Assembly (NCBI GenBank): GCA_022841505.1 | Contig: JALHRK010000018.1 | Location: forward strand, 1-38,286 | Direction of reading: 5' to 3' | From: Saprospiraceae bacterium | GTDB taxonomy: Bacteria > Bacteroidota > Bacteroidia > Chitinophagales > Saprospiraceae | DNA length: 38,286 nucleotides | Shown here: positions 29,188 to 31,701 of the stretch, piece after piece | How positions within the stretch are numbered: position 1 is the stretch's first letter | Layout: every line of letters begins with the position of its first letter | The notes under the pieces: generated by a model | What the model was told of the DNA's origin: nothing | Database searches by the model: none | What the model saw: only the letters and a program-made list of their open reading frames with translations | Position numbers and translations under genes: made by a program

Positions 29188-29272
29188 TTGACCTATATTC
29201 ACAATTATGTTCCGGCAGGTTCCCAAAGTTTCGTATTTTCCCGTTTGCAAAAGCTATAAAATACGCGCCGTA

Positions 29273-30070
29273 ATGGAACCAATCACAAAAAACAATGCCA
29301 GCAATAAAGGACTATACGTGTTGAATATCGTTGCCCTGGCGGTAGTCTTGTACCTCAATTACTTAGCAAACGCCTTGCCGCTCAATGGCCGGACCCCGGG
29401 GGAGCTTTCTGACCTGTATCCCAACCTGTTTGTACCCGCCGGGCTGACGTTTTCAATCTGGGGCGTCATCTACCTGTGGGTGCTGGTCTGGGTGGGCATG
29501 CAGGCAGTCGCATTGCTGACCGGAAAACAGGCGCCGGGAGCAGCCAAAGCAGGTTGGTGGTTTTTGGCAACCTGTGCGCTCAACATGGGCTGGCTTTTTG
29601 CGTGGCATTGGGAGCAATTGCTGCTTTCGGTGGGTATTATGATCGCACTTTTGTATTGCCTGGTGCGGCTCAATCAGGCGATTGGGAATGGCGTGTCGGC
29701 AGAAAGCGCCTGGGAAAAATGGACCGCTCACCTCGTTTTTGGATTGTACCAGGGCTGGATTACGGTGGCTTTGATTGCCAATGTGACGGCGTTGCTCGTT
29801 GGATCAGGATGGAAAGGCGGCATGTTGGCTGAATCAGATTGGGCCATCATCATGGTGGAGGTCGGCGCTGCGCTTGCAGTTTTCATGGTCTGGCGTTTCA
29901 ACCATTTATTTCATGGCGTAGCCGTCATCTGGGCTTTATACGGCATCTACCTGAAAAGATCGGCAGAAGTCAGCAGCGATTCCATTTATGTGGCTTGGGC
30001 CGCAATTGCAGGTATGGCGCTCGTTGCAGGTTTTGTTGTTTTGAATGTGCGGAAGTGGTGGAGGTATTGA
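29273..30070 (+). CDS. TspO/MBR-related multi-pass membrane protein
   Basis: The ATG at 29273 gives 265 aa with seven or so hydrophobic helices. Conserved wording such as NALPLNGRTPGELSDLYPNLFVPAGLTFSIWGVIYLWVL matches Bacteroidota proteins often annotated as tryptophan-rich sensory protein or TspO/MBR relatives. It is longer than the five-helix TspO (about 160 aa). Tryptophans are frequent in the helices (WGVIYLW, WWFLATCALNMGWLFAWHWEQ). The ligand and role are unknown. It is preceded by the yidC terminator and followed by repeat copy 2, so it is probably its own transcript. A longer frame from 29207 adds 22 residues without support. Confidence 0.7.
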   Translation: MEPITKNNASNKGLYVLNIVALAVVLYLNYLANALPLNGRTPGELSDLYPNLFVPAGLTFSIWGVIYLWVLVWVGMQAVALLTGKQAPGAAKAGWWFLATCALNMGWLFAWHWEQLLLSVGIMIALLYCLVRLNQAIGNGVSAESAWEKWTAHLVFGLYQGWITVALIANVTALLVGSGWKGGMLAESDWAIIMVEVGAALAVFMVWRFNHLFHGVAVIWALYGIYLKRSAEVSSDSIYVAWAAIAGMALVAGFVVLNVRKWWRY

Positions 30071-30102: not shown

Positions 30103-30330
30103 AAATGGGGTTGTTCGTTGAGCGTTGTTTGTTGTTCGTTTGTCAGCTGGATGGGTGCAGTCAAAATGGAGTCGAAGCGAAAATTTAACGGCGTTGTCGG
30201 CTTATGTCGGAAAACGAAAACATCCTCCGAATAACGAACTAAACGATCAACTTACAACGATCAACTTACAACAAATTCCCCAGGCTCCTCATCCTCAAAT
30301 CTTCAAATACTCAAATTTTCAAATACTCAA
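30103..30330 (-). repeat. About 200 bp dispersed repeat, copy 2
   Basis: It is the reverse complement of copy 1 (12868-13075) with scattered differences: GTTGTTCGTTTGTCAGCTGG at one end, a core with AAATTTAACGGCGTTGTCGG and AACATCCTCCGAATAACGA, then AACGATCAACTTACAACG units and TCAAATACTCAAAT runs. It fills the gap between the TspO-like gene and the HIT fusion gene, ending about 15 bases before the latter's ATG, so it forms most of that gene's upstream region. Confidence 0.75.
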
Positions 30331-30345
30331 ATACATCCGACTGAC

Positions 30346-31701
30346 ATGACAAAAAAACACTTCCTCTCCCTGACCTTATGCGTTTTGGGGATGGCGCCTC
30401 TTGTTGCGCAACCATTCACCCAAACAGATTTTCAACAACTGCATGCCCTCAGAGGCGCCTGGACCTTAACGAACAAAAGGGGCGTGCTGCATGAGGTCTG
30501 GCGGTTGAATGCAGCCGATCAACTGACCGGAGTCAGCTTTTTGGTGCGCGGAAAAGACACGATCCCACAGGAAAACATTGTTTTGCAGTTGCGGGAGGGA
30601 AACATTACCTATACGCCAACGACTGTTAATCAAAATGAAGGTTTGCCTGTCGTTTTTACTTTGATCAGCACCGAAAACGGGCTTTTCATTTTTGAAAACA
30701 AGGCGCATGATTTCCCACAACGAATTGGCTATCAGATCCCAAAAGATTCCCTGCTCAACGCATACATTGAAGGTCCGACGCCAAACGGGATGAAAAAAAT
30801 ACCATTCCCCTACAAAAGAATCCACCGGTCAAACCGCGTTCCCAGTCCGGAATATACGGCACGAAAAGCGACTGCCCTCCAGGCGCCTTCTGTTTTCCAA
30901 AAAGAAATTGACGGAAAATTTCCGGGAAGGGTTGTGTACCAGGATAGCTTGGTGACGGCACTTTACCCTTTGGGAGGCGGACAATTGCCTGCCCACCTGC
31001 TCGTCATTCCCAACCGAACGATTCCAACCCTGAATGAGGCTAAAGCTGAAGACGCCGCCTTGCTGGGGCACATGATCCTGACCGCCCGCGACCTTGCGCG
31101 CCAGGAGGGCATTGAAGAAACGGGGTATCGCCTTGCATTCAACACCAACGAAGACGCCGGTCAGTCCGCTTTTCACCTCCACCTGCACTTGTTGGGAGGC
31201 GCCCGCACCGGGCCCATGGCCGATCAGCGCTGGCGCAACATTCGCCGCCGGCTGAATGACCCCAATTTGGCGGATCCCTTTGAAAAAAGAATCCTCGGAA
31301 TCTGGTCGGGGCAAGGCAGTGCGTTTGGAATGCCTGCCAATATCTCGATGGCTTGGGAGCCGGATCTGCAAAGTAATTTTTTGCTGCTCAACTACCGCAT
31401 GGACATGCGCGATACCAGTGGTCGTGTGCAAACCTTCGAAGGAAAAGCCTATTACCAGCCGGCAGGAACTCCGGGGCAATACAAAGCGACCTGGTTCGAT
31501 TCCGGTGGGGAAATGCACCCCGTGGAGGCAACATACGACGGCCAGATACTGACTGCCAACTGGGGAACGCCTGCCACCAAAATGGGCAAAACAACGTATC
31601 ATTTTGTAGATAACAACACCGTGGAAATTGTGGATTATATCCAGACAAAAGATGGAAGCTGGAAAGCGTTTAACCGGAATACAGTTTTAAGAAACCCGTA
31701 G
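30346..31701 (+). CDS. Exported DUF6265-HIT-lipocalin-like three-domain protein
   Basis: This 451 aa protein starts with a signal peptide (residues 1-21, PLVA-Q). Residues 30-160 match DUF6265: LRGAWTLTNKRGVLHEVWR, FLVRGKDTIPQENIVL, FIFENKAHDFPQRIGY, AYIEGPTPNGMKKIPFPYKRI. Residues 183-290 form a HIT domain with LPAHLLVIPNRTIPTLNEA, FNTNEDAGQSAFHLHLHLLGG and the catalytic triad His277, His279, His281. The N-terminal zinc cysteines of HINT proteins are missing. Residues 305-451 form a second lipocalin-like sheet (LGIWSGQGSAFGMPANISMAWEP, VEIVDYIQTKDGSW). HIT enzymes are nucleotide hydrolases or transferases and normally cytosolic, so export and this layout are unusual. The substrate is unknown. 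Confidence 0.82.
   Translation: MTKKHFLSLTLCVLGMAPLVAQPFTQTDFQQLHALRGAWTLTNKRGVLHEVWRLNAADQLTGVSFLVRGKDTIPQENIVLQLREGNITYTPTTVNQNEGLPVVFTLISTENGLFIFENKAHDFPQRIGYQIPKDSLLNAYIEGPTPNGMKKIPFPYKRIHRSNRVPSPEYTARKATALQAPSVFQKEIDGKFPGRVVYQDSLVTALYPLGGGQLPAHLLVIPNRTIPTLNEAKAEDAALLGHMILTARDLARQEGIEETGYRLAFNTNEDAGQSAFHLHLHLLGGARTGPMADQRWRNIRRRLNDPNLADPFEKRILGIWSGQGSAFGMPANISMAWEPDLQSNFLLLNYRMDMRDTSGRVQTFEGKAYYQPAGTPGQYKATWFDSGGEMHPVEATYDGQILTANWGTPATKMGKTTYHFVDNNTVEIVDYIQTKDGSWKAFNRNTVLRNP

Follow-up and report, generated by a model that had tools for sequence, protein, structure and literature searches.

The predicted structure of the 451-amino-acid product of one gene in the 38,286 nucleotides of Saprospiraceae DNA that we analyzed (the window) confirms a HIT fold between two nitrobindin/lipocalin-like barrels, in a protein whose leader predicts export. 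The protein belongs to a small, apparently undescribed family of HINT proteins, exported in Bacteroidota, that has kept the catalytic residues and lost the ribose-gripping part of the pocket. We estimate a probability of about 60% that it is an extracytoplasmic HINT-type hydrolase of phosphoramidates or phosphoesters whose substrate is something other than a canonical ribonucleotide.

Anatomy of the protein

The open reading frame begins with ATG, and its features are listed in Table 1. A reading of the DNA alone, without database searches (the sequence-only reading), had described a signal peptide followed by DUF6265, a HIT domain and a second lipocalin-like sheet, and this anatomy is borne out by Pfam, the leader pattern and an AlphaFold2 model. 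The model, which was built from an alignment of 20 sequences, has a mean pLDDT of 87 and a pTM of 0.48, so we take the predicted domains to be reliable, but not their placement relative to one another.

Table 1. Features of the gene for the exported HINT protein, with positions in the window
Feature	Positions	Strand	Evidence
Whole gene, 451 aa: signal peptide, DUF6265 barrel, HINT domain, C-terminal nitrobindin-like barrel	30346..31701	+	ORF, Pfam, AF2 model, fold comparison
Signal peptide MTKKHFLSLTLCVLGMAPLVA, predicted to be cut by SPI before Gln22 under the Bacteroidetes Q-rule	30346..30408	+	Sequence; pattern in relatives
DUF6265, nitrobindin/lipocalin-like beta barrel, residues 22-160	30409..30825	+	Pfam, model, fold match
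Linker helix SPEYTARKATALQ, pattern Y..KK/RKA..L, absent from cytosolic HINTs	30844..30882	+	Alignments
HINT (HIT) domain, residues 181-292	30886..31221	+	Pfam HIT, E. coli HinT match, VIA
Pro208, where HINT1 (Asp43) and E. coli HinT (Asp31) have the ribose-binding Asp	30967..30969	+	Alignment
His217 (HINT1 His51, E. coli HinT His39)	30994..30996	+	Alignment; 14/14 exported, 37/37 cytosolic
His triad H277-x-H279-x-H281 (HINT1 His110/His112/His114)	31174..31188	+	Alignment; 14/14
Clade-typical tail GPMADQRWR beyond the HINT core	31210..31236	+	Met 14/14, Gln 13/14
C-terminal nitrobindin-like barrel, residues 305-450, remote to DUF1579	31258..31695	+	VIA; DUF1579 below cut-off

Judged from its sequence, the leader has a hydrophobic core and ends in LVA before Gln, so that the junction reads MTKKHFLSLTLCVLGMAPLVA/QPF. 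A hydrophobic core followed by Ala, Gly or Ser and then Gln was present in all 13 members of the clade (see below) whose N terminus is covered, a count to be taken with reserve as regards L113, which has masked bases in its N-terminal part and whose leader was taken from the ORF start at L137:2141. In L141, which starts at a contig edge, the leader is incomplete and only its end, SAQ, is visible. These leaders match the Q-rule for substrates of signal peptidase I in Bacteroidetes (PMC5837995), and the proteins are predicted to be exported by Sec and cleaved by this peptidase.

The flanking domains had been read as folds of a type that binds small molecules, and the fold comparisons agree, with Z scores of 13.4 to 16.3 to OlmO, nitrobindin and Rv0813. 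Residues 35-142 match DUF6265 (PF19780; E = 2.8e-10, 41 bits against a cut-off of 23.8), and when this domain was folded separately (pLDDT 94), it resembled OlmO (Z = 15.0) and nitrobindin (Z = 13.4). For the C-terminal barrel, DUF1579 (PF07617) gave a sub-threshold hint at residues 341-444 (16 bits against a cut-off of 25.2, E = 0.012), and VIA placed residues 287-451 on Rv0813 (Z = 16.3) and on nitrobindin (Z = 16.0). Thus both barrels share the fold of the nitrobindin/THAP4/Rv0813 and OlmO-type proteins, but at just 9-15% sequence identity. By eye, we recognized no counterpart of the heme-ligand histidine in the C-terminal barrel.

A HINT domain with an intact active site

Pfam's HIT family matches residues 192-286 above its cut-off (E = 1.7e-16), and the best solved relative of the protein is E. 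coli HinT (PDB 3n1s; residues 181-292, E = 9.4e-30). The HIT fold is also present in the predicted structure: VIA aligned 115 residues of the segment 176-294 with E. coli HinT (Z = 15.9, 2.7 Å). The sequence-only reading was right that the HLHLHLL motif is intact, and the upstream histidine is intact as well. In an alignment with 13 other exported HINT domains, the residues equivalent to His39, Asn88, Gln95, His99, His101 and His103 of E. coli HinT are retained in all 14, and the leaving-group serine (HINT1 Ser107, position 96 in E. coli HinT) is Ser in all 14. (The correspondence between HINT1 and E. coli HinT numbering was set from the alignment and published residue numbers.) All 14 exported domains therefore have a HINT-type active site, with the upstream His, the Asn and the Gln and Ser of GQS, and the HIT fold with its HxHxHxx triad places the protein in the HINT branch of the HIT superfamily.

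What has changed is the pocket. In HINT1, Asp43 makes bidentate contact with the 2'- and 3'-hydroxyls of the ribose, and Ile44 stacks on the base (PMC11349198). The Asp43 position is Pro in eight and Ser in six of the exported domains, whereas all 37 cytosolic HINTs have Asp. As a control, we considered 13 further HINTs with long open frames: the Asp is found in every one of them and a signal peptide in none. The drift extends to other contacts with the nucleoside, including the Ile22 position, which is Glu in 6 of 13 exported domains. The catalytic set thus appears sufficient for a phosphoramidase, while the grip on ribose seems to be gone. We looked for a published mutant of Asp43 in the literature and did not find one.

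By fold and active site the protein is a HINT, yet it is neither a HinT equivalog nor MccH. PRK10687 ("purine nucleoside phosphoramidase") is its best NCBIfam model, at 110 bits against a curated cut-off of 206 (other clade members score 124-127 bits), and the trait of that equivalog, an Asp that binds the ribose 2'- and 3'-hydroxyls, is missing from the exported domains. The MccH motif, ExxxxxHxHxKxx, is not found either: the protein has HLHLH, and all 14 exported domains have HxHxH. CDP-diacylglycerol pyrophosphatase (PF02611, cut-off 25 bits) had no match listed for the protein, and the relatives of the protein score 12-15 bits.

A clade of exported HINTs

A tree of 51 domains splits the 14 exported HINTs, all from Bacteroidota, from E. 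coli HinT and 36 cytosolic HINTs of Bacteroidota with support of 99/98. This unrooted tree gives the split only, its bootstrap had not fully settled according to a warning from the program, and L078 has a long branch. Because of the tree and the loss of the ribose-binding Asp, we consider the exported HINTs, as judged from their sequences, to be a distinct clade. The clade also shares the preceding helix (Y..KKA..L, with Tyr and Lys each in 13 of the 13 members that cover the region) and a GPM..Q tail. A separate branch had been proposed earlier because the zinc cysteines of HINT are absent. The branch stands, but we rejected that argument for it, as the sequence of E. coli HinT lacks these cysteines too.

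The sequence-only reading had suggested looking for the same domain order in other genomes. The same gene is present in a congener at 78% identity (L002/L029), and the same three parts occur at about 45% identity in a Bacteroidota MAG (L030) and in G708 (L108/L130). A HINT profile was run against 395 genomes from the phylum, 398 from the order, 298 from the family and, in addition, 123 from the order that includes G332. This widened search added two proteins with a SnoaL/DUF4440-type domain (L003/G019 and L109/G762). In another family of Bacteroidota, L078/G340 has the HINT domain and a C-terminal barrel like that of the 451-amino-acid protein, without DUF6265. L077/G332 and L113/G863 have a domain with a sub-threshold match to 3-keto-disaccharide hydrolase; G578 has two copies in which HINT is followed by a middle segment and a beta-lactamase-family domain; and L111, L140 and L141 are HINT alone. 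This makes six arrangements: no partner, DUF4440/SnoaL, 3-keto-disaccharide-hydrolase-like, beta-lactamase-family, C-terminal barrel only, and DUF6265 with the C-terminal barrel. As the sandwich of three domains is just one of the six, it is not the defining feature of exported HINTs. Instead, the sequences point to one export cassette that was joined recurrently to different partners.

The clade is rare, with members in 6 of 398 genomes of the order and 6 of 298 of the family. Besides the exported HINT, G332 and G340 encode a separate one that is cytosolic. In the order to which the window belongs, the E. coli type of HINT was found only in exported form at the search threshold used; the genome itself encodes a more distant HIT protein on another contig (C44). 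Outside Bacteroidota, a search at E ≤ 1e-46 of 200 genomes from the phylum to which L045 (Asticcacaulis) belongs yielded no members, in a set that lacks a positive control, and a scan of Viral_contigs with the linker and HINT domain gave no relatives.

The C-terminal barrel of the 451-amino-acid protein is 47% identical to that of L078 and 43% identical to that of L030. The FENKAHDFPQ signature of DUF6265 is eroded in both L030 and G708. HINT and the C-terminal barrel therefore look to be under stronger constraint than DUF6265. Also, the similarity to the barrel of L078 suggests that the fusion of HINT with the C-terminal barrel came first and that DUF6265 was gained later.

Several other candidates were set aside. 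A match from Calditrichia (L143) is an E. coli-like HINT with the Asp and without a leader. HINTs in frames of 324-438 amino acids, recurrent in one family of Bacteroidota (f45; about ten genomes), at first resembled fusions of the same cassette. They consist of HINT, a hydrophobic segment and a rhodanese-like C terminus (L097, L159 and L160, from G289, G086 and G159), and they also have the Asp and no leader. Finally, a frame at a contig end (L138:9045-9338, from G030; L021) has the leader and the triad and is missing about 70 residues from the middle of the domain, by decay or by an assembly error, and we left it out of the clade counts.

Comparison with known HIT proteins

E. coli HinT (PRK10687; PDB 3n1s and 8v1y) shares the HINT fold, the catalytic residues, about 45-50% identity across the domain, a similar GPM tail and the absence of zinc cysteines. 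However, HinT is a leaderless single-domain protein that keeps the ribose-binding Asp, whereas members of the exported clade carry a leader and a linker helix, have Pro or Ser in place of the Asp, and vary in their partners. Human HINT1 and HINT2 share the fold and the His triad, and HINT2 also lies outside the cytosol (in mitochondria), but both keep the Asp, lack partner domains and have a WPPG tail.

The sequence-only reading held that every well-studied HIT or HINT protein is a cytosolic nucleotide hydrolase, which overlooks Cdh of E. coli. Cdh, the CDP-diacylglycerol pyrophosphatase (PF02611), is an inner-membrane-anchored member of the HIT superfamily and thus a precedent for such enzymes outside the cytosol. 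Cdh belongs to a different family, although some clade members show sub-threshold local similarity to it (E = 0.02-0.12).

Proposed function and alternatives

In the mechanism that we propose, Sec would export the protein, the leader would be cut before Gln22, and the protein would act in the periplasm or farther out. Its HINT core would retain the two-step HIT mechanism: the middle histidine of the triad would attack phosphorus to form an organophosphoryl-His intermediate, with Ser and His assisting the departure of an amine or alcohol, and water would then free the phosphate product. Given the loss of the ribose-binding Asp across the clade and the drift at the base contacts, the substrate is probably a modified or non-ribose organophosphate or phosphoramidate rather than a plain ribonucleoside phosphoramidate. 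Binding or presenting the ligand is the probable role of the flanking barrels and of the different partner domains found in relatives. On the other hand, human HINT1 can bind a 2'-modified nucleotide in a pose off the usual pocket (PMC11349198), so a pocket without Asp43 might still accept nucleotides. This counts against our explanation, as do the rarity of the clade and the finding that no gene neighborhood is conserved across it. We are more tentative about a broader statement, to which we would give slightly worse than even odds: that a class of extracytoplasmic HINTs gave up recognition of ribonucleotides and hydrolyzes, in the envelope of Bacteroidota, a phosphoramidate or phosphodiester that is not a nucleotide (or lacks ribose), with a portable export cassette joined to varied ligand-binding domains.

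An earlier suggestion was that the protein turns over an extracytoplasmic nucleotide or nucleotide conjugate. This would make it an ordinary nucleoside phosphoramidase or aminoacyl-adenylate hydrolase that acts outside the cytoplasm to salvage nucleotides or their conjugates, as might be expected from the retained catalytic residues, from E. coli HinT being its nearest characterized relative, and from PRK10687 being its top model, albeit well below the cut-off. The extracytoplasmic part of the suggestion fits the leaders, but the nucleotide part is weakened by the missing Asp and by the altered base contacts, and we consider this reading unlikely. Alternatively, the HINT fold might serve as a dimerization or binding module in a non-catalytic ligand-binding or scaffold protein. 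The two ligand-binding-type barrels, the drift of pocket residues and the DUF6265 signature eroded in two relatives would all suit such a role, but a dead enzyme would not be expected to keep its catalytic residues strictly while its pocket changes, which makes this quite improbable.

A third kind of role would be detoxification, that is, cleavage of phosphoramidate antibiotics (peptide-nucleotides or similar) before they enter the cell. MccH, a microcin C resistance protein, is a HIT-superfamily hydrolase adapted to a special phosphoramidate, so shifts of specificity do occur; its cleavage of a P-N bond is what makes cells resistant (PMC7157772). The sporadic occurrence of our family would also suit a defense-like gene. 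However, MccH acts in the cytoplasm on the processed compound and has Lys in place of a triad histidine (PMC7157772), the protein lacks this Lys, and no resistance or biosynthetic genes were seen beside clade members at the loci examined, so we judge an extracytoplasmic counterpart of MccH to be very improbable. Last, a recent chance fusion or assembly artifact of three unrelated genes is hardly credible. DUF6265 does occur as a single-domain protein in many genomes, and the GC content of the parts differs (47, 58 and 50%), but the order recurs in independent assemblies at 78% and about 45% identity, HINT is joined to the C-terminal barrel in another family (L078), and a search of 199 genomes of the order at E ≤ 1e-8 yielded no stand-alone C-terminal barrel.

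Few enzymes are as widespread as HINTs, yet what they do in nature is unsettled. Indeed, the reason for their conservation has been called a mystery (PMC3130732). If our preferred reading of a HINT hydrolase with a non-ribonucleotide substrate is true, then the exported clade, without the Asp that grips ribose, is a natural separation of the catalytic machinery from nucleotide binding. Exported HINTs would be a tractable system for asking what HINT chemistry is for, and they would point to an unrecognized phosphoramidate or organophosphate activity in the Bacteroidota envelope. In the literature that we searched, which leaves out most subscription journals, we found no earlier description of a HinT that is exported, secreted or periplasmic, nor any paper about DUF6265.

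Genomic neighborhood

No gene is common to the clade loci that we compared, and the neighborhoods give no clue to the substrate. The gene for the 451-amino-acid protein stands alone, 275 bases past a gene for a Trp-rich membrane protein and about 150 bases before an ORF for a Reg_prop histidine kinase. The membrane protein (29207-30070 in the window, 287 amino acids) is TspO-like by eye and has no match in Pfam or NCBIfam. Just upstream of the HINT gene, at 30230-30340, are short direct repeats, with CGATCAACTTACAA twice and units similar to TCAAATACTCAAAT.

L030 and G708 share the order HINT, TonB-dependent receptor, DUF4249. These three genes lie on one strand (L030:3015-8116 and L130:1643-6540), with a gap of about 17 bases within the run in L130, and might form an operon. 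The two exported genes of G578 (L132 and L133) are near-identical; each adjoins a divergent sensor kinase and a response-regulator-like gene, and an alkaline-phosphatase/nucleotide-pyrophosphatase-like gene lies within a few kb. In G762, about 1.1 kb separates the exported HINT from a gene for a type I phosphodiesterase/nucleotide pyrophosphatase (PF01663; L131:7714-9366).
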